From the NCBI GenBank assembly GCA_001769535.1, contig MEOH01000018.1:124001-188000 (forward strand): a stretch of 64,000 nucleotides of DNA, read 5' to 3'. This document shows, piece after piece, positions 4,801 through 58,625 of the stretch. The translations under genes and the position numbers were made by a program. Source of the DNA: Bacteroidetes bacterium GWF2_38_335. GTDB taxonomy: Bacteria > Bacteroidota > Bacteroidia > Bacteroidales > GWF2-38-335. Each line of letters starts with the position of its first letter. The stretch's first letter is position 1. Below the pieces are notes generated by a model that saw only the letters and a program-made list of their open reading frames with translations, was not told the origin of the DNA and made no database searches.

Positions 4801-5534
4801 TCTACTGCTTCTGCAGCTAATGCTTGTTTTCTTGCACCATCAGGGTCATTCTCTTTTCCATAATAATCATGAGGATTGGCAGCTGTGTACCATCCAACAA
4901 CTGTTGAATTTACAGTTAAATCTCCGTAAGAAGTTTCAAGATAATACTCTTGAAATGATCCTGTCCCATTATATCCTGCTTGATTCATCATATTGTTAAA
5001 ATTCGATTGAGGAAATGTCGCAGCAGCATCGGGAAATTGAATCAATATTACCAGCAAATTTCTCGTTCCTGAAGTAGGAAACGCCTTTGCTGATCCAGAT
5101 TTTGAATCTGGTTGATAATCTGAACGAAGTTGTTCAATTTTCTCTGAACTAAAAGGAATGCCTTTGTTCCTGTTGGTAAGATATGCCTTTTCAACAGACG
5201 TCTTTTTTTCATTATCCGAACTAACCAAAACTCCTGAAGGAATGAGGTCCCCATTAGAATTATTGTCAGCATATTCAAAATAACCAGATGCGTTTTTTAT
5301 GATTGCATATCCCTCTTTCGATTCACACCAGTTTACAGCACCATCCCCTTTTTGAAAAAAAGTAATTGTGGTACCATTTGGTTGAATATATCTGATTTCA
5401 TGAGGGTCTGCCGGAACTCCAAAACTTTTCGCTATAAATTTTAGTTTACTTTCCCCTGTATCTTGTGAAAACATCAGATAAGGCAGAGCCAGAAAGAAAC
5501 ATGATAAAATTAATGTTATTGTAATTTTTTTCAT
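1881..5534 (-). CDS. Secreted M6-family metalloprotease with GEVED-like, FN3 and T9SS sorting domains
   Basis: This 1217-residue exoprotein starts with a clear signal peptide (MKKITITLILSCFFLALPYLMFS). The peptidase domain of the immune-inhibitor-A type (M6) follows, with the zinc motif HEFGHNLGLPDW at residues 327-338 and the downstream NWDCMAGGSY segment. A GEVED-like region ending in EWGETEDYSLNI lies near 750-770. Three fibronectin type III repeats of about 90 residues, very alike, fill roughly 858-1120. The last 85 or so residues, beginning CNVYPNPVVSNL, are a T9SS type A sorting domain, so export and surface attachment or release through T9SS is expected. The protein probably degrades extracellular protein. 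It is monocistronic, with a terminator on one side and the repeat array on the other. Confidence 0.92.
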   Translation of the reverse strand: MKKITITLILSCFFLALPYLMFSQDTGESKLKFIAKSFGVPADPHEIRYIQPNGTTITFFQKGDGAVNWCESKEGYAIIKNASGYFEYADNNSNGDLIPSGVLVSSDNEKKTSVEKAYLTNRNKGIPFSSEKIEQLRSDYQPDSKSGSAKAFPTSGTRNLLVILIQFPDAAATFPQSNFNNMMNQAGYNGTGSFQEYYLETSYGDLTVNSTVVGWYTAANPHDYYGKENDPDGARKQALAAEAVDAAEAGGVNFSIFDNDGNGYVDGVMVIHQGDGAEQGDLSNIWSHSWGLYGANARNYDGVNIQAYTMNPETSWGAMGKIGVLCHEFGHNLGLPDWYDTDYAESGGESEDLGNWDCMAGGSYNNGGSSPAHHNAYAKYLLNWIALPALTTAASITMPNVENNQVAYKYATTTTNEFFVIENRQQIGFDAYLPGHGLLIYHVDENYIEGAGNCINCDPTHQGMDMEEADGTIAHGAGDAFPAGATSFTDGTTPSAQSWAPANTSKPITNISETSQVIYFDFMGGSSAPTIVNVVHSPDPVYESSTVGVSADITDNGTINTAKCLWCTDGVTYGNVINMTLTGGNTYQTSTLIPAQTIGTTVYYKIEATDNTDETTTTPAYSYSVEAPSYCASTYTSAGSEYILNVTFNTINNASGDESASGYGDYTAQSTDVNLNSTHLLSVTINTLGAYTDHCWAYFDWDKSYTFDAEEAYDLGDITNVTAGVLSQNITIPEGATLGSTRMRINMEYNGDPGACDVDHAQEWGETEDYSLNIVAGVSTYSVTFNVSDGTSPIEGASVTFNGLTQPTNLSGQTIFTNVNVGTLLPYSISAANYNSTGGTLDVVDQNVTQNVTMIGIIATNITVEGTTPTSATISWDGEGATNYIIYFQKVGATTWTYNTSTSSPYVINNLEPNTNYNCRLKTYNGGIYSSYTSTVNFTTQDGAPVVATNVAVEGITATTATISWDGEGATNYIIYYQKVGATSWAYFSSTSSPYLMNNLEPNTNYNCRLRTLNAGVYTPYTSTVTFTTLDGAPVIASNVLVDATTATTATISWDGEGATNYIIYYKKESATSWSYKTSTTSPYTLTGLLPATNYNCRLRTYNGGVYSAYSSTVNFTTSSSKESIISENINVLDISCNVYPNPVVSNLKVAFNADVESEFSISIVDISGRKLRSIATMGNNGHNEIEFDVADLKTGIYFVNIECSYAKEVIRFIKCE
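2180..2960 (-). repeat. Three tandem FN3-coding repeats of about 270 bp inside the M6 protease gene
   Basis: Three consecutive units encode the phrase ATISWDGEGATNYIIY with nearly the same flanks (PNTNYNCRL, FTT). Similarity is visible in the DNA as well as the protein, so the units duplicated recently or are being homogenised by recombination. Confidence 0.85.
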
Positions 5535-5639
5535 ATTAAGAAGATATTAATTTATTAAACAGTTTTTGTTACAAGAAATATTTTACGAAAATGAAATAAA
5601 ATGGTTTCAATTTTAATGAAAATTGAAAAGGGCTGAAGA

Positions 5640-10022: not shown

Positions 10023-10319
10023 ATGCTATCATTGGTTCAACAATTAAATAAGGTATATTTTTGGGATGTAAATTTCGAAACCTTAAACGAAATCAAATCC
10101 AAACGGTTAATCATTGAACGGGTTTTATGTTTTGGTAATCTTAATGAAATTAAGCTGTTAATTCATTTTTACGGAAATAAGGAGATTATCAACACCATCT
10201 GCAAGCTTAATTATATTGATCCCAAAACACTAAATTTTTTAATGTTGCTTTTTAATCTACCAAAAAAAAGTTTTCGATGCTGCACAAAGAAACAGTCGAT
10301 CCAAAAACCCTGGAATTAA
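10023..10319 (+). CDS. DUF6922 family protein, probable antitoxin partner
   Basis: A 98-residue protein with FWDVNFETLNEIKSKRLIIE, then NEIKLLIHFYGNKEIINTIC and YIDPKTLNFLMLLFN. This is the compact all-helical pattern of the DUF6922 proteins that precede AbiEii-type nucleotidyltransferases in Bacteroidota. By analogy with AbiEi/AbiEii it is probably the antitoxin or regulator of a type IV-like system. No catalytic residues or DNA-binding motif are obvious by eye. Its last 43 nt overlap the start of the AbiEii gene, so the pair is co-translated. The ATG at 10023 is preferred over the one at 9987 because a -7 box lies between them. Confidence 0.75.
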   Translation: MLSLVQQLNKVYFWDVNFETLNEIKSKRLIIERVLCFGNLNEIKLLIHFYGNKEIINTICKLNYIDPKTLNFLMLLFNLPKKSFRCCTKKQSIQKPWN

Positions 10320-10909
10320 TTATTAAACTGCAAAGTAAAACTTACCTCAAAGACTTTTATCTGGTCGGAGGCACAGCTTTGGCTTTAAAAATAGGCCATA
10401 GAAAATCGATTGATATCGATTTGTTTTCGAATTTTGATTTCGATACGGAAGAATTGTTAGAAAACCTTTCAAGTGATTTTTCATTTCATCTCTTTTTTTC
10501 TGCTAAAAACACAATAAAGGGAAGTATAGATAATGTTCAAATTGATATATTAGCCCATCGTTATCCCTATGTTTGCGAACCAAAAACCATTGATCAGATT
10601 TCAATGTTGTCTGTTCCTGATATTATTGCCATGAAATTAAATGCTATTACTGTAAGTGGCCAACGGGTAAAAGATTTTATTGATCTTTATTACCTTCTTT
10701 ATGATTATTCGGTTGAAGAAATGATTTCCTATTATAAACAAAAATACGCTCTTTTTAATGAAGTTAATGTTCTAAAAAGCATGACATGGTTTGATGATGT
10801 TGACACAAATGAATGGCCGATTATGATAAAAGATAATAATTTGAAATGGACTCAAGTGAAGAAAAATATTAATAGTCACGTTAGCAAATATTTAAAAAAA
10901 CAATTTTAG
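10277..10909 (+). CDS. AbiEii/AbiGii family nucleotidyltransferase, probable toxin
   Basis: The 210-residue protein has GGTALAL at residues 31-37 and RKSIDIDLF at 42-50, which together form the nucleotidyltransferase signature (GG, then DxD) of AbiEii toxins. A later segment, MKLNAITVSGQRVKDFIDLYYLL (about 118-143), holds the conserved Lys and the KDfiDl motif. AbiE systems are type IV toxin-antitoxin modules; the toxin modifies an RNA or another target with NTP and can cause abortive phage infection. Length and motifs are intact, so the gene looks functional. The pair is isolated on both sides by palindromic repeat mosaic, consistent with acquisition as a unit. The defence role is inferred. 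Confidence 0.85.
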   Translation: MLHKETVDPKTLELIIKLQSKTYLKDFYLVGGTALALKIGHRKSIDIDLFSNFDFDTEELLENLSSDFSFHLFFSAKNTIKGSIDNVQIDILAHRYPYVCEPKTIDQISMLSVPDIIAMKLNAITVSGQRVKDFIDLYYLLYDYSVEEMISYYKQKYALFNEVNVLKSMTWFDDVDTNEWPIMIKDNNLKWTQVKKNINSHVSKYLKKQF

Positions 10910-46766: not shown

Positions 46767-46842
46767 CGTAAAAATGTTCAATTGGGTTTTGGGATGATTA
46801 ATTTTTGCCGCTAATGCGCGAATTTTTTTTGTGTAATATTGG

Positions 46843-52802: not shown

Positions 52803-53639
52803 ATGGAAGTGAGTAACGAGGAAATATTATCTTTTATTGATGCCATAAAAAATTCATCGCCTTATGATTTTTCTGAATATTCAGAAAAATCATTTCGAAG
52901 ACGTCTTGAAAAAATTCTGGCCGACAACAACTACACCATGGATAAGCTGATCGCCAAAATCAACAAGGATCATCTGTATCTTGAAAAAATTGTTAAGGAT
53001 ATAACCGTCAACACCACAGAGATGTTTCGCGACCCCAAAGTGTGGCACGAACTCAGGTATAAAATCCTGCCCCAGCTTAAAAACAAAGAGCATATAAACA
53101 TTTGGCATGCAGGCAGCTCCACCGGAGAAGAATTGTATTCTATGCTGATACTGTTGGGCGAGATGGAACTGTTTGACAAAACCTCTATTTACGGTTCAGA
53201 CCTGAATTCGGATGTTATTGAAACCTCAAAAAACGGACAATACCGGTATAAGTTCAATGCCATTTACATTGATAATTACAATGCCGTTATGATTGACAAG
53301 CCGGGAAGTGAGGAAAAATATCAACTGGATTACGAAAAATATTTTACCATTGACAAAACCCGGGATATTATAAAAATGAATAAATTTTTGCTCGATAAAC
53401 CGATTTTTGCCAAACATGATCTGGTTTCGGGCACAAATATTTTTGATGCTAAATTTGATCTGATTATCTGCCGCAATGTGCTCATTTATTTCAATAACAA
53501 CCTGCAAAATAAGGTTTTCGACCTCTTTCATCGCAGTCTGAACGACAGCGGCTATCTGGTTATCGGATTGCACGAAAGCATACTTGGTCCCCTTACTGCC
53601 AAATTCGAGAAAAAATCTCAGGTTTATCAAAAGAAATAA
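52803..53639 (+). CDS. CheR-type protein glutamate methyltransferase
   Basis: A 278-residue CheR. The N-terminal helical domain contains KSFRRRLEKILADNNY. TVNTTEMFRDPKVWHEL matches the conserved T.FFRd region. The SAM-binding motif is AGSSTGEELYS at residues 103-113 (usually GCSTGEE), and LIICRNVLIYF lies near 225. It should methylate Glu residues of a chemoreceptor or another signalling protein. No receptor, CheA or CheW is nearby, so it belongs to a non-motility signalling module. It starts the CheR-CheR*-CheB series; the next gene follows after 3 nt. Confidence 0.93.
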   Translation: MEVSNEEILSFIDAIKNSSPYDFSEYSEKSFRRRLEKILADNNYTMDKLIAKINKDHLYLEKIVKDITVNTTEMFRDPKVWHELRYKILPQLKNKEHINIWHAGSSTGEELYSMLILLGEMELFDKTSIYGSDLNSDVIETSKNGQYRYKFNAIYIDNYNAVMIDKPGSEEKYQLDYEKYFTIDKTRDIIKMNKFLLDKPIFAKHDLVSGTNIFDAKFDLIICRNVLIYFNNNLQNKVFDLFHRSLNDSGYLVIGLHESILGPLTAKFEKKSQVYQKK

Positions 53640-53642
53640 TCC

Positions 53643-54464
53643 ATGGCAAAGTACCTGAGTTTATCCGATTTTGAACAGATCATTTCTGAATTAAGCAGGC
53701 ATATGGATATCGATTTTTCAGCTTTTTCTCCATTTCCCCTGAAAAACATTGTAGCCGCAAACATGCAGAAATGCAATGCCCCGGATGCCGCTCAATATAT
53801 TGCCAAAATCAGCCGCGATAAATATTTTCAGGCCGCTTTACTTAACGATTTATCATTTTTCGAAACCGAAATGTTCCGCGACGCAGCTTTTTGGTCGCTT
53901 CTTCATGATTCGGTGCTGCCTGCCCTGGGAAAAAGATATGAAAAACTCAATTTTTTTCTTCCTGTTTCAAATACCGGCGAGGAACTTTTCTCTCTGATAA
54001 TCCTGCTTAAGGATTGCGGAATATTTGAAAAATCAACCCTTTATGTTTCCTGCATGAATAAAAAAAATGCGGAGGATATCAGGAACGGACTGGCAGACAA
54101 GAAAAAATTTGCCGTTTGCAAAAAAAATCTTGACGAACAAAAAATGCCCATTGACCTTTCAAAACACTTTACCAGTAAATCCTGTCACGAGGTGCTAAAT
54201 GAAAAGCCCAACAGCAATGTGCATGTGGAAATTTCGCTTTTCAACCATTTTCCCGATAAGGATTTCCATCTGATCCTTATGAGAAACAAACTGATGTTTT
54301 TAAGTGAAAAAATGCACCGCAGCCTCATAGGGGAAGTTGACAGCCGCATTATTCCCGGAGGATTTCTGGCTCTTGGATACAGGGAAAATATCCTTGAAAA
54401 AGAAATAGAAAAAAAATATGAGCAGGTAATTAATACCGAAAAAATATTCAGAAAAATCGGATAA
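53643..54464 (+). CDS. Degenerate CheR-like protein lacking the SAM motif
   Basis: A 273-residue paralogue of the preceding CheR. The region SFFETEMFRDAAFWSLLHDSVLPAL matches the CheR catalytic-domain start. The SAM motif has become LPVSNTGEELFSL (106-118), so the Gly-rich turn is lost, and the later CRNVLIYF is MRNKLMFL. The fold is likely retained but methyl transfer is probably lost. Possible roles are a regulatory partner of the active CheR or a receptor-binding decoy; both are inference. It is 3 nt after CheR and 1 nt before CheB. Confidence 0.82.
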   Translation: MAKYLSLSDFEQIISELSRHMDIDFSAFSPFPLKNIVAANMQKCNAPDAAQYIAKISRDKYFQAALLNDLSFFETEMFRDAAFWSLLHDSVLPALGKRYEKLNFFLPVSNTGEELFSLIILLKDCGIFEKSTLYVSCMNKKNAEDIRNGLADKKKFAVCKKNLDEQKMPIDLSKHFTSKSCHEVLNEKPNSNVHVEISLFNHFPDKDFHLILMRNKLMFLSEKMHRSLIGEVDSRIIPGGFLALGYRENILEKEIEKKYEQVINTEKIFRKIG

Positions 54465-54465
54465 C

Positions 54466-55077
54466 ATGAAAAATGAATCTCCACAAAGCAAGCATCACTT
54501 TTCCGACAACGGTCGGGTTAAAGCTATTGCCATAGGTGGTTCGGCCGGAAGTTTCAAGGTTATCGTTGAAATTCTGAACAACATGACTGCCGGATTTAAC
54601 ATTCCTGTTTTCCTCTGCCTGCACCGTCTAAAGCATGTGCGCTGTGGATTTGTCGAAGCATTGTCTCTTAAATCAAACCTGAAAATTTCCGAACCGCTGG
54701 ATAAGGATTTTGTTAAAAACGAAATGGTTTACCTTGCTCCGGCCAACTATCACATGTATGTAGCTCCCGACAAACAAATTCACCTCTCAACTGAAGATAC
54801 CACCAACCATTCCCGTCCCTCGGTCGATAACATGTTCTTTTCACTGGCCGAAACCTATAAATCAGGATTGATCGGTATTTTGCTTTCCGGGGCGAATCGC
54901 GACGGGGCAAAAGGCATCGAGACAATACAAAAATTTGGAGGCACAACCATCATCCAGCATCCCGATGATGCCCAGGTCAATACCATGCCACTTTCTGCCC
55001 TCGACCTGATTAAACCCGATTACCTGATGAGCTCCGATGAAATCCTTGAATTCCTTATGCAATTAAGTAAAAAGTAA
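54466..55077 (+). CDS. CheB-type methylesterase domain without receiver
   Basis: The 203-residue protein is a stand-alone CheB catalytic domain. The nucleophile is S26 in GGSAGS, the base is H53 in LHRL, and the third residue is D147 in SGANRDGAKG. RPSVDNMFFSLAETY is also conserved. It should hydrolyse methyl-Glu on the same target as the CheR. Because no response-regulator domain is present, control must come from elsewhere, for example from the neighbouring degenerate CheR or from SiaB/SiaC. It begins 1 nt after the CheR-like stop. Confidence 0.93.
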   Translation: MKNESPQSKHHFSDNGRVKAIAIGGSAGSFKVIVEILNNMTAGFNIPVFLCLHRLKHVRCGFVEALSLKSNLKISEPLDKDFVKNEMVYLAPANYHMYVAPDKQIHLSTEDTTNHSRPSVDNMFFSLAETYKSGLIGILLSGANRDGAKGIETIQKFGGTTIIQHPDDAQVNTMPLSALDLIKPDYLMSSDEILEFLMQLSKK

Positions 55078-55080
55078 TAG

Positions 55081-55700
55081 TTTAAGGTCTGAAAGACCGA
55101 TTTGTAGCACCACAGGGTGAAACATAGTGTAACTGTGAAAAAAACCAAGAAGGGATTGCATTGACGAAGTCAGGAAAAACATTCGCGCATTCGCTGCAAA
55201 AAATACCTGCCGCGAATGCGCGAATGAAAGATCGTTTTATCATTAGTATTAAATTGTGATTTTATTAGCTTTTTTCGCATAGGGTTGCATTTCATTTCAC
55301 CCTATGCCGTTACAATCCCAGGGCTTTGCCCTTGCATCATCTGAGTTTAAGGTCTGAAAGACCGATTTGTAACACCACAGGGTGAAACATAGTGTAACCC
55401 TGTGAAAAAAACCAAGAAGGGATTGCATTGACGAAGTCAGGAAAAACATTCGCGCATTCGCGGCAAAAAATACCTGCCGCTAATGCGCGAATGAAAGATT
55501 GTTTTATTATTAGTATTAAATTGTGATTTTATTAGCTTTTTTCGCATAGGGTTGCATTTCATTTCACCCTATGCAGCTACAATCCCAGGGCTTTGCCCTT
55601 GCATCATCTGAGTTTAAGGTCTGAAAGACCGATTTGTAGCACCACAGGGTGAAACATAGTGTAACCCTGTGAAAAAAACCAAGCATTGACCAAGTCTGGA
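55081..55700. repeat. Three tandem copies of a 266-bp non-coding repeat
   Basis: Copies start at 55081, 55346 and 55613; the first two are full-length and nearly identical, the third stops near 55700. Each starts with GGTCT-GAA-AGACC and goes on to CACAGGGT/ACCCTGTG with a GAAACATAGTGT loop (copy 1 has lost two bases from the right arm). The full copies continue with a GCGCATTCGC-type inverted pair, GCATAGGGT/ACCCTATGC and AGGGC-TTT-GCCCT. No open frame is credible. The block separates CheB from SiaB; 55701-55785 is AT-rich leader sequence. Confidence 0.88.
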
Positions 55701-55785
55701 AATAGTATAATTTACGTTTTTCTTATCAAAAAATTGAATTATTCAAAATGATTACTTACTTTTATCTTCTAAATAAGATTTTCTG

Positions 55786-56394
55786 ATGACAAAGCAAGAG
55801 GATAATGGCAATAAACTGCTGGGTTTTGTATACGATTTCTTCAAAACGATGCAGGCCAATGAAATTAATCTGATTTATGAGGGTGAAATTACCCATCAGA
55901 TTACTAAAGCTTTTCTTACCCTGACAGAAGCAAGCCTTGAAAAAAGCGATGACACAAACCAGGTGCAGAAAAGAGTTTTCCATGTAATGGTGGAATGCCT
56001 CCAGAATATCACCAAACATGCCGATGAAATTGACATGAGCGAATTGGTGGATGCAAAATTCAGCAAAGGAATCCTCATGATCGGAAAATGTGACGATGAG
56101 TATTTCGTTACCACCGGAAATGTCATCAAAAATGATAAAATTGACGGACTGAAAGTTATGCTCGAGCATATCAACAGTCTGAACAAGGAAGAACTCAGAA
56201 ACCTCTACATAAAACAGCTTAACGAAGGTAAATTATCCGATAAAGGTGGCGCCGGTTTAGGTTTTATCGATATTGCACGAAAAACCGGACACCGACTGGA
56301 ATATGAATTCCTTCCCATTAACGGACATTATTCCTTCTTTGTTTTAAAAATGAAAATTACCCGTCAAAAAAGAACAAGTGATGAAACCATTTGA
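55786..56394 (+). CDS. SiaB family protein kinase
   Basis: A 202-residue GHKL-type ATPase. It has the N-box HVMVECLQNITKHADEI and, near the end, KLSDKGGAGLGFIDIARKTGH as the ATP-lid G-box. The helical N-terminal part resembles SiaB of Pseudomonas, which phosphorylates its partner SiaC. The SiaC-like gene follows immediately, overlapping by 14 nt, which supports the pairing strongly. In Pseudomonas, SiaA (a PP2C phosphatase) and SiaD (a diguanylate cyclase) complete the switch; neither is visible here, so the output may differ. Confidence 0.9.
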   Translation: MTKQEDNGNKLLGFVYDFFKTMQANEINLIYEGEITHQITKAFLTLTEASLEKSDDTNQVQKRVFHVMVECLQNITKHADEIDMSELVDAKFSKGILMIGKCDDEYFVTTGNVIKNDKIDGLKVMLEHINSLNKEELRNLYIKQLNEGKLSDKGGAGLGFIDIARKTGHRLEYEFLPINGHYSFFVLKMKITRQKRTSDETI

Positions 56395-56761
56395 ATCCCA
56401 CGAAAAAGAGGACTCTCCATTTGTAATAATGGACGCTGAAAATAACAACTTTATGATTTCGGGTAAATCACTGCCCGAAGATACATTCTCGTTTTACGGA
56501 CCAATATTGGCCTGGCTTAAGGAATATTCGGCTAACCCGAATCCCAAAACCGAATTCAATTTTAAACTGATCTATTTTAATACCGCTACCTCAAAATCAA
56601 TAGTGGACATATTGATTCTGCTGGAAAATATTAAAAAATGCGGACATGATGTTATTGTCAAATGGCACTATCCCGAAGATGACGAAGATATTCAGGATTC
56701 GGGCGAGGAATTTGCAAACATCATCGACATCCCTTTCGAGCAAATCCCTTACGAGTATTAA
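56381..56761 (+). CDS. SiaC family regulatory phosphoprotein (DUF1987)
   Basis: From the ATG at 56381 the protein is 126 residues; an in-frame GTG at 56378 is the only alternative. It matches the DUF1987/SiaC family: MISGKSLPEDTFSFYGPILAWLKEY and then LIYFNTATSKSIVDIL. In this numbering T68 lies in FNTATSKS, the same position as the phosphorylated Thr of Pseudomonas SiaC as I recall it. Unphosphorylated SiaC there activates a diguanylate cyclase. The acidic C-terminus (YPEDDEDIQDSGEEF) is also typical. It overlaps siaB by 14 nt. Confidence 0.9.
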   Translation: MKPFESHEKEDSPFVIMDAENNNFMISGKSLPEDTFSFYGPILAWLKEYSANPNPKTEFNFKLIYFNTATSKSIVDILILLENIKKCGHDVIVKWHYPEDDEDIQDSGEEFANIIDIPFEQIPYEY

Positions 56762-56912
56762 AATTTGACTCTTGTTTTTCCCTGACCAGGAAAAACACAA
56801 TCCCCTTAAAAGCGCTGACCACCGCATTTTGATGAATAGCTTCATCCAAATTCGGTATATTTAAATTGTTTTACTTAACTTGCTGCGCATTTGGCACATT
56901 AACTTTATTATT

Positions 56913-58625
56913 ATGAAGAATTTTCTACTTTCTTTCGCACTTTTCTGTGCTTTTTCTGCTTCATCTTTTGCTGAGGTTGTTTCTTTGGATTACGCCCGGA
57001 CTGTGGCCGGAAATTTTTATTCCTCACAATATCTTAAGGCAAACCAGAAATCCTGCACAGCTCATATTATTTCTGAATTTACCGGATTTTATGAGTCTGA
57101 CCCCGCTTATTATATTTTCGGAATGTCTGACAACGGCTTTGTAATATTAACCGCCGACAACCGCGTTTTTCCAATTATCGGATACTCCTTCGAAAACCGT
57201 TTCGACCCTTCTCAAACGCCCGAACAGCTCGAAGCTCTGCTGAACGCCTTTGCAAATCAGATCAACTTCATCCGCCAAAGCGAAACAAAAAATTCATATG
57301 AAAAACTCTGGTCCGATATTTACAACAACAAACACACCAAGGATCTGTATGATTTCAAAACCGTTCCCGCCCTCCTTACCACCAAATGGAACCAGGGCTA
57401 TCCTTACAACAATTACTGCCCCGAGCATTTCGACGGTCCGCATGGCCGCTGCTACGCCGGTTGTGTTGCCACTGCCATGGCGCAGGTAATCAAATACCAC
57501 AACTACCCCGAACACGGCAATGGTACCCACGATTATTTCTGGGGCGATATTTATACCGTTGATTATGAAAACACCTATTACCACTGGGAAGAAATGACCA
57601 ACTCGGCCACCACTTCAAGCGCCGACGCCATTGCCGAACTTACCTTTCATTGCGCCGTTTCGGTTGACATGAACTTTGGTCCCTACGGCTCTTCCAGCTA
57701 CACCGAATGGGTTCCCGATGCACTTAAAAACTATTTCAATTACCGGCCTTCCATCCGGTTTAAAGACCGTGTTGGCGCCGATTACGACCCGTGGGATATG
57801 ATGGTAAGGGACAACCTTGACAACGGCCTTCCTTTGATTTACAGCGGCCAGGGATCGGGCGGACACGCTTTCGTTTGCGACGGATATCAGGATACCTGCT
57901 ATTACCATTTTAACTGGGGATGGAGCGGCTATGGCGACGGCTGGTACTATTACAACGACCTCACGCCTCCGGGCAACGATTTTTCCTATTACCAGGGGGC
58001 AGTTTTTGACATTGCTCCGTATTTCGCACCCTATTGTGCCGACGGAAAAACCATGATCGAATACAACCGCAATTTTGGCGATGGCAGCGGAATGTCATTT
58101 TACTGGAACAACACATCCTGCGAATGGCTTATTGCGCCCATGGCCGATTCGGCCGAGTACATTTCCCTTTGGTTTAACTCATTCAACACCGAGCTGGGCA
58201 AAGACATTTTGTATATCTACGACGGAGCCGACGAAACCGCCCCGTTAATAAAACAATGTTCGGGAGGAGCAGTTCCCACGGGCGTTACCTCAACAGGAAA
58301 CACCCTGTTCCTGAAATTCGTCACCGACAGCATAAACCAGTTCCCGGGCTGGGAGGCCACATATATGTCGGGAGCCATAGGCATCAATGAGCTTTCTTCG
58401 GGCAAGCCTGTTAAAATCTACCCCAATCCCGCCAGCAGCATCGTTACCCTCGAAACCCCGGGCAAAGCAGACTGCACAATCCTTGACCTGCACGGAAAAA
58501 CCATCAGGAAATTTTCCGGCACCGGAAAAGAACTGATTGATGTTTCAGGCCTAACCAAAGGAATTTACTTTATCAGAGTCGTTTCTGCTGAATATTTTGG
58601 CGTGGTTAAATTGGTGGTGGAGTAG
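56913..58625 (+). CDS. Secreted C10 (streptopain-like) cysteine peptidase with CUB-like and T9SS domains
   Basis: The ATG at 56913 gives a signal peptide (MKNFLLSFALFCAFSASSFA); total 570 residues. A propeptide precedes the C10 domain, whose catalytic Cys is in GRCYAGCVATAMAQVIKYH. The catalytic His is in GSGGHAFVCDGYQD, followed by HFNWGWSGYGDGWY. A CUB-like segment (DGKTMIEYNRNFGDGSG ... LYIYDGADETAPL) comes next. A T9SS type A sorting domain ends the protein (PVKIYPNPASSIVTLE ...). It resembles interpain and related proteases of oral Bacteroidales. It stands alone between the SiaC gene and the ECF sigma gene. Confidence 0.93.
   Translation: MKNFLLSFALFCAFSASSFAEVVSLDYARTVAGNFYSSQYLKANQKSCTAHIISEFTGFYESDPAYYIFGMSDNGFVILTADNRVFPIIGYSFENRFDPSQTPEQLEALLNAFANQINFIRQSETKNSYEKLWSDIYNNKHTKDLYDFKTVPALLTTKWNQGYPYNNYCPEHFDGPHGRCYAGCVATAMAQVIKYHNYPEHGNGTHDYFWGDIYTVDYENTYYHWEEMTNSATTSSADAIAELTFHCAVSVDMNFGPYGSSSYTEWVPDALKNYFNYRPSIRFKDRVGADYDPWDMMVRDNLDNGLPLIYSGQGSGGHAFVCDGYQDTCYYHFNWGWSGYGDGWYYYNDLTPPGNDFSYYQGAVFDIAPYFAPYCADGKTMIEYNRNFGDGSGMSFYWNNTSCEWLIAPMADSAEYISLWFNSFNTELGKDILYIYDGADETAPLIKQCSGGAVPTGVTSTGNTLFLKFVTDSINQFPGWEATYMSGAIGINELSSGKPVKIYPNPASSIVTLETPGKADCTILDLHGKTIRKFSGTGKELIDVSGLTKGIYFIRVVSAEYFGVVKLVVE

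Follow-up and report, generated by a model that had tools for sequence, protein, structure and literature searches.

Five genes of Bacteroidetes bacterium GWF2_38_335 lie within the 64,000-nucleotide stretch of DNA analyzed here (the window; G000:C18:124001-188000, from an assembly of 5.27 Mb that comprises 29 contigs and is 96.7% complete) and encode a CheR homologue, a CheR paralogue termed pseudo-CheR, a CheB homologue, and homologues of the SiaB kinase and the SiaC phosphoprotein. These genes are probably the remnant of a Bacteroidota operon in which CheR/pseudo-CheR/CheB methylation is wired to a SiaABC switch, with an ABC exporter and a lipoprotein as output. The operon, widely conserved in Bacteroidota and apparently undescribed, carries the same five genes in the same order and on the same strand. 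Compared with this type arrangement, the copy in the window is reduced and orphaned, and its locus lacks the GAF, SiaA-like phosphatase, TerB/ABC, lipoprotein and small-protein genes of the operon. The features of the locus are as follows.

52803..53639, + strand: cheR, 278 aa, putative protein-glutamate methyltransferase (PF01739, 126.5 bits)
53643..54464, + strand: cheR* (pseudo-CheR), 273 aa, matched by the S-adenosylmethionine (SAM)-domain model only (PF01739, 44.1 bits)
54466..55077, + strand: cheB, 203 aa, methylesterase domain without receiver (PF01339, 144.9 bits)
55078..55785, no strand: non-coding gap of 708 nt separating the Che trio from siaBC
55786..56394, + strand: siaB, 202 aa, DUF6272/SiaB-family protein kinase (PF19788, 147.4 bits; NF038262, 177.1 bits)
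56381..56761, + strand: siaC, 126 aa from the ATG at 56381, SiaC/DUF1987 phosphoprotein (PF09345, 132.6 bits)

A first-pass annotation made from the sequence alone had proposed these five open reading frames and their families, and Pfam and NCBIfam bore them out; the lost SAM motif of the CheR paralogue and the lack of a CheB receiver were likewise confirmed. The Che genes do lie within 4 nt of each other (3 nt from the cheR stop to the pseudo-cheR start, 1 nt from the pseudo-cheR stop to the cheB start), and the siaB and siaC frames share 14 nt with the siaC ATG as start, or 17 nt with an upstream GTG. All five proteins exceeded the respective Pfam cut-offs (24.5 for PF09345), and the cut-off of the NCBIfam model SiaB_fam_kinase (NF038262) is 85 bits. 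Both Sia proteins scored below the cut-offs of the equivalog models, SiaB reaching 68.9 bits against a cut-off of 225 (NF038264) and SiaC 80.2 bits against 150 (NF038265).

Judged from the motif residues present, both CheR and CheB are putatively catalytic. The window CheR looks active, with the HAGSSTGEE motif I, the SDLN Asp, the FRD Arg and the IYF Tyr all in place, and in CheB Ser26, His53 and Asp146 occupy the motif positions that we take to be the catalytic triad, the three motifs being conserved in at least 95% of 46 CheB sequences. SiaB matched chain A of PDB entry 6kko, and SiaC matched 6k4f, 6kko, 6kkp and 7e6g. Residues N67-T68 of SiaC carry the same numbers as in Pseudomonas SiaC, so that the predicted phospho-acceptor Thr68 is conserved.

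A conserved Che–Sia gene order in relatives

In many relatives, the CheB and SiaB genes share a strand and are separated by about 4 kb. The conserved order starts with cheR, followed in some loci by a GAF-PAS sensor gene, then pseudo-cheR, cheB and a gene for a GAF protein of about 250 aa. It continues with a GAF-PAS-PAS-SpoIIE phosphatase of about 870 aa, siaB and siaC, and ends with a TerB/ABC/ABC2-membrane fusion of about 1030 aa, a lipoprotein of about 305 aa and a protein of about 145 aa. Domains were assigned by Pfam on the genes of one locus (L073), and the remaining loci were labelled by comparison with it. SiaA gave the best NCBIfam match of the L073 phosphatase, with 192 bits for residues 603-873 against an equivalog cut-off of 700, and the PP2C motifs SGDF, DCTGHG, DG and DD are conserved in at least 95% of 48 operon phosphatases. 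By eye, these motifs match the SiaA active-site residues given in PMC7647112.

The N-terminal residues of the transporter are invariant across 13 aligned sequences, and its ABC-2 family suggests that it exports. TerB was matched in the L073 transporter, and it was not matched in the homologue on contig C29 of the window genome. The protein of about 305 aa carries a lipobox-like motif in 80 of 93 sequences under a permissive pattern and gave no Pfam or NCBIfam family among the sequences scanned; its predicted model (pLDDT, the predicted local distance difference test, 81.5) had no PDB match at E <= 0.001.

A scan of genome contigs with a single pseudo-CheR sequence returned no relatives, probably because this protein diverges fast, while a lipoprotein-alignment scan returned at least 414 relatives among 588 stretches, the best 80 of which were analyzed. 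Counting for each gene only loci with enough DNA on the side concerned, pseudo-cheR was found in 53/59 of these lipoprotein-anchored loci, cheB in 54/59, the GAF gene in 56/60, the SpoIIE phosphatase in 58/61, siaB in 66/68, siaC in 65/68, the ABC fusion in 69/69 and the small downstream protein in 80/80. One or more operon genes are absent from five of the 59 longest loci (L130, L157, L171, L175 and L184), and the Che half of L167 is encoded on the other strand, past the transporter half. Bacteroidota taxa are named in the titles of 77 of the 80 loci; the other three bear the names Chlorobiota (L128 and L174) and Kosmotogales (L142), perhaps through mis-binning. The L142 contig carries a Bacteroidota-like siaBC–transporter cluster whose SiaB nests among Bacteroidales, and it is probably mis-binned.

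Across many families we counted 66 co-directional cheB–siaB pairs in the same order and on the same strand, spaced 56 to 3923 nt apart (median 3.4 kb) and usually with two conserved genes between them; at least four contigs entered this count twice, since L106, L129, L140 and L153 are contigs of G019, G047, G053 and G042 in the genome set described below. The arrangement is hence not peculiar to the window, as the first-pass annotation had allowed it might be: the order recurs and the two halves co-occur. That annotation had described a methylation-plus-phosphorylation switch whose target it could not name; the linked halves in relatives support the switch, and the ABC transporter and lipoprotein genes that come after siaC there revise the view of the target. 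It had also found no PP2C phosphatase, which holds at the locus and fails genome-wide, the assembly having 43 SpoIIE/PP2C matches elsewhere; in relatives, a SiaA-like phosphatase is encoded between cheB and siaB.

No description of a Che–Sia cluster was found in a search of titles and abstract starts of the open-access literature, a search that left most subscription journals and bioRxiv outside. The only paper with SiaB, SiaC, CheR and CheB mentions SiaABCD and chemosensory classes separately (PMC9239204).

Co-distribution, pseudo-CheR and the candidate substrate

We next considered 60 genomes, namely the window genome, one congener (G001) and 58 others of the same order, a set less biased than the lipoprotein-anchored one. 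SiaB occurs in 28 of them, CheB in 33 and both in 25. Both pseudo-CheR, looked for only beside CheB, and the lipoprotein family are co-distributed with SiaB: pseudo-CheR adjoins CheB in 23/28 SiaB genomes versus 0/32 others (Fisher 4e-12, phylogeny ignored), and the lipoprotein family is present in 27/28 versus 0/32 (Fisher 3e-16, phylogeny likewise ignored). Among the matches listed, the halves are linked in at least 14 of the 25 genomes with CheB and SiaB, 13 times co-directionally within 5 kb, the window included, and once divergently at 5.1 kb (G035). The 13 include G027, which is without the GAF and phosphatase genes, and G054, which is without pseudo-cheR.

Eight genomes have CheB without SiaB. 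In five of them (G014, G021, G040, G050 and G058) the adjoining CheR keeps the ribose-contacting Asp, as does a CheR fused to CheB in G039; because this residue is kept, these six are taken as ordinary CheR proteins. In the remaining two, G003 and G013, the stretch examined shows no CheR. CheW occurs in 16/28 SiaB genomes versus 3/32 others, and 9 of the 23 genomes with adjacent pseudo-CheR and CheB have neither CheW nor a methyl-accepting chemotaxis protein (MCP), which argues that the Che module can do without a chemotaxis array.

To characterize the paralogue, we compared 40 CheR and 68 pseudo-CheR sequences, near-duplicates removed, at positions that, by analogy with Salmonella CheR, are expected to bind SAM or act in catalysis. 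The ribose-contacting position is Asp in 40/40 CheR and 0/68 pseudo-CheR, the motif-I Gly is kept in 39/40 versus 10/68, and the Cys preceding RN in 40/40 versus 2/68. All 68 pseudo-CheR sequences retain the FRD Arg, the Asn of RN, a Gly and a Glu, and 51 retain the IYF Tyr, which is Phe in the window protein. By its residues, therefore, this is a conserved pseudo-CheR whose SAM site is lost. The predicted model of the window protein (32-row alignment, pLDDT 90.7) retains the CheR fold, CheR structures being its first matches and Bacillus subtilis 5ftw leading (template modelling score, TM, 0.76/0.80). The paralogue evolves fast: among 400 sampled operon pairs, its identity averages 49% in the 49 pairs whose CheR identity is 70-84%, and 37% in a second identity class. 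Beside a second CheB of G047 (L022; G047:C623), a CheR-like protein intermediate between CheR and pseudo-CheR keeps the Asp, has lost motif I and lies close to a GAF-like match.

The GAF-PAS sensor would be the likeliest substrate of CheR. The next recognized gene upstream of 76 pseudo-cheR genes is cheR in 53 cases, the sensor in 18 and none in four, with one contig edge (some contigs counted twice). Conversely, cheR lies within 900 nt of 8 of 28 sensor matches, and 14 of the other 20 begin at the locus start, where the neighbour on that side is outside the view. In several genomes, cheR heads a siaBC–transporter cluster while pseudo-cheR and cheB lie elsewhere (L206, L208, L209) or pseudo-cheR is unseen beside CheB (L212, G008): a divergent cheR adjoins the sensor gene at the cluster head in G017 and G055, whose pseudo-cheR and cheB are elsewhere, a co-directional cheR is next to it in G008, and in G056 (L208) cheR overlaps a weak sensor match. 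The absence of a receptor partner, noted at first pass, thus applies to the window and not to those relatives in which a GAF-PAS sensor lies beside cheR.

Six sensors were scanned, giving GAF in all six, PAS in five, and HAMP above cut-off in one and below it in two. The sensor beside the divergent cheR of L209 (3169-5760) carries an MCP-type four-helix module (PF12729) but gave no match to the MCP signalling domain. As to the recurrent neighbours considered in the first-pass annotation, PAS proteins were found, as sensor and phosphatase, GGDEF proteins were not, and no kinase domain, of a histidine kinase or otherwise, was present in the six sensors and one operon phosphatase, the only neighbours scanned for it. 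An 'ATQEE' coil shared by the sensor (16/23) and the phosphatase (34/75) was considered as the methylation site. Among eight genomes tested, its pattern occurs in three of four with a linked operon (G025, G042 and G037, not G015) and in neither G003 nor G023, which are without SiaB; a reversed control gave 0 in all eight.

The reduced locus of the window genus

Both CheR matches and the single CheB match of the window genome are at the window locus. The assembly also holds three SiaC matches, at least four listed DUF6272 matches (two of them inside one fused protein on C22) and six matches of the lipoprotein (p305) family. Extending the first-pass finding of no receptor, CheW or GGDEF protein at the locus, the whole assembly gave 0 matches to the MCP signalling domain (PF00015), 0 to GGDEF and 0 to the CheW domain (PF01584), which also ends CheA, whose own models were not run. 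Three side observations concern paralogues. The fused double-SiaB gene of C22 is followed by siaC (L092; G000:C22:163.5-165.1 kb), the fused double-SiaB gene of the congener (L203; G001:C27) has five SpoIIE genes around it, of which the two that were scanned carry TPR repeats, and one p305 match (G000:C26:128146-129024) is interrupted by three TAA stops.

In a quick midpoint-rooted tree of 53 SiaB rows, in which one in four of the L106-L185 operon rows was used, the window SiaB and that of the congener (G001:C39) form a pair with support 100, distinct from the C22 and C29 paralogues. The pair lies beside 34 operon rows (SH-like approximate likelihood-ratio test, SH-aLRT, 86) inside a clade of support 95. 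In the congener, the Che trio is on C172 and siaBC on C39, neither adjoined by GAF, phosphatase or transporter genes. The tree and this arrangement together suggest that the genus kept five operon genes and lost the middle and output genes at the site. Candidates for these partners elsewhere in the two genomes were rejected: matches to the L073 phosphatase covered only its SpoIIE end (the longest 531-874) or PAS part, and the L066 sensor was matched only from residue 453 on. Transporter and lipoprotein homologues are present on C29. Because the partner genes are gone from the site, the window genes, if working, would act in trans, and their partners may include some of the 43 PP2C proteins.

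Where the window has the 708-nt gap, relatives carry the GAF and SiaA-like phosphatase genes. The longest stop-free run in the gap is 63 aa, and the gap is filled by a non-coding tandem repeat at 55079-55702, with a unit of about 267 nt (two full copies and the start of a third) and inverted-repeat arms. The repeat appears dispersed, because pieces of it recur at other sites of the genome: in L092 at 5394-5572, as 37-40 nt pieces in L093 at 10143-10358, adjoining another siaC, and, within the window itself, as 31 nt near 46799-46829.

Several observations weigh against the reading of the locus as the remnant of one wired operon. The co-distribution statistics ignore phylogeny, the lipoprotein family, which has paralogues outside the operon, is a marker of SiaB genomes and not solely of the operon, and intact clusters are over-represented in the 80 loci because their selection followed similarity to the lipoprotein of a single operon. 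In the SiaB tree, the support of 86 is moderate and the root is a midpoint root, the operon SiaB of G027 falls just outside the operon group and those of G054 fall apart from it. The window genus is without a full-length counterpart of the sensor, the likeliest methylation substrate, or of the operon-type phosphatase, and the strict coil pattern is absent from both its genomes and from the operon-bearing G015. Finally, among the matches listed, 11 of the 25 genomes with CheB and SiaB have the two halves unlinked, including the congener (L077, L078) and G036, in which CheB is near only a different, fused SiaB; and a second arrangement exists, with siaBC convergent with the ABC transporter gene (L093 of G000:C29, L202 of G001, L211 of G008 and L214 of G038) and neither Che genes nor an operon-type phosphatase in the stretch examined.

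These last two observations favour the view that the halves are co-inherited neighbours serving separate pathways, the Che enzymes modifying PAS/GAF sensors and SiaB/SiaC with a PP2C phosphatase controlling the transporter. We consider this unlikely, although it is the strongest competitor, given that in the 60 genomes pseudo-CheR beside CheB never occurs without SiaB, that cheR heads siaBC–transporter clusters even where pseudo-cheR and cheB are elsewhere, and that a GAF gene sits between the cheB and phosphatase genes in 56/60 loci.

Somewhat less likely still is that the window locus is a relic in decay that retains little function. The loss of the middle and downstream genes and the dispersed repeat in the gap point this way, as do identities to the congener of only 32% for pseudo-CheR and 59% for CheB, the latter below operon pairs of like CheR identity. 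However, all five frames are intact, SiaB, SiaC and CheR are 83%, 69% and 68% identical to those of the congener, and the catalytic and phospho-acceptor motif residues are retained. Moreover, intact operons show similarly low pseudo-CheR identity (the means of 37% and 49% given above), and the congener keeps the five genes, though scattered. That two unrelated gene sets became neighbours by chance, as the repeat-filled gap and the unlinked halves of the congener might suggest, is very improbable and is refuted by the 66 co-directional pairs in relatives.

Proposed signal flow and output

For the Bacteroidota operon of which we take the five genes to be a remnant, the best-supported inference is a flow from methylation to the phosphatase, then to SiaC and the transporter. 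CheR would methylate and CheB demethylate a GAF-PAS sensor, sometimes with HAMP and in one of the six scanned with an MCP-type four-helix module. Pseudo-CheR, presumably unable to bind SAM normally, may act as a scaffold or competitor setting the access of CheR and CheB. The state of the sensor would tune the GAF-PAS-PP2C phosphatase, which would remove from SiaC Thr68 the phosphate added by SiaB, and unphosphorylated SiaC may then bind the TerB-ABC protein and alter its activity. In the window genus, CheR, pseudo-CheR, CheB, SiaB and SiaC would depend, in trans, on other phosphatases and on the C29 transporter and lipoprotein homologues.

In Pseudomonas aeruginosa, SiaC binds SiaD when unphosphorylated and no longer does so once SiaB has phosphorylated T68 (PMC8457831), and SiaA takes the phosphate off SiaC again (PMC7647112). 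Homology of SiaB, SiaC and T68 might suggest that SiaC here also controls a diguanylate cyclase and feeds cyclic di-GMP (c-di-GMP). This was rejected as having next to no chance: at the level of the family model, no GGDEF was found in the window genome or across the 28 genomes that have SiaB, and the only one of the 60 genomes with a match is without SiaB, indicating that the SiaC target is not a diguanylate cyclase. In the lipoprotein-anchored loci the ABC fusion comes after siaC and the lipoprotein gene is next, and siaBC also adjoins the transporter gene, convergently, in the four loci of the second arrangement, two of them in the window genus; given this linkage, the conserved T68 and the lack of GGDEF in SiaB genomes, we propose the transporter as the partner that SiaC may contact.

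The operon thus resembles the SiaABCD system of P. aeruginosa, as described in PMC7647112 and PMC8457831, in its SiaB-family kinase, in the position of T68 and in the SiaA-like PP2C gene beside siaB in relatives. In contrast, no SiaD or GGDEF protein is found here, a TerB/ABC transporter and a lipoprotein follow siaC, a Che module precedes it, and the operon phosphatase has a GAF-PAS-PAS architecture, while the window copy has no adjacent phosphatase.

CheR/CheB methylation is regarded as chemoreceptor adaptation upstream of CheA. The window proteins resemble chemotaxis CheR/CheB in the CheR motif residues and the CheB Ser/His/Asp, yet their genome is without MCP or CheW, CheB is without a receiver and a second, SAM-site-less CheR is conserved. 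Wsp-type c-di-GMP systems likewise use CheR/CheB to tune a non-flagellar output, but through an MCP, CheA and a GGDEF regulator, whereas no MCP, CheW domain or GGDEF was found here. SpoIIE/Rsb partner switching sets a PP2C phosphatase against a GHKL-type kinase on a STAS-like phosphoprotein; the opposition of phosphatase and kinase on a phosphoprotein is alike, but here a transporter gene is present, and no sigma or anti-sigma factor was found among the operon genes scanned.

CheR/CheB are therefore tied to a phosphatase-kinase-phosphoprotein switch and a transporter across many Bacteroidota families, some genomes of which have no CheW or MCP match. If confirmed, this would be a second signalling logic for receptor methylation, with a conserved pseudo-CheR and a c-di-GMP-free SiaC output, and it gives candidate functions for the unannotated pseudo-CheR, lipoprotein of about 305 aa, protein of about 145 aa and TerB-ABC fusion in gut, rumen and environmental Bacteroidota. 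More tentatively, and with rather more doubt than confidence, the whole could be viewed as a chemoreceptor pathway without a histidine kinase, in which methylation-adapted sensors act through PP2C and SiaABC on an ABC exporter and a dead CheR serves as dedicated adaptor. If true, this would define a Bacteroidota signalling class using CheR/CheB with neither CheA nor the MCP hairpin.

Directly 3' of siaC in the window, at 56880-58625, lies a gene for a C10-family cysteine peptidase with a Spi inhibitor propeptide, a CUB domain and a type IX secretion system (T9SS) sorting tail.

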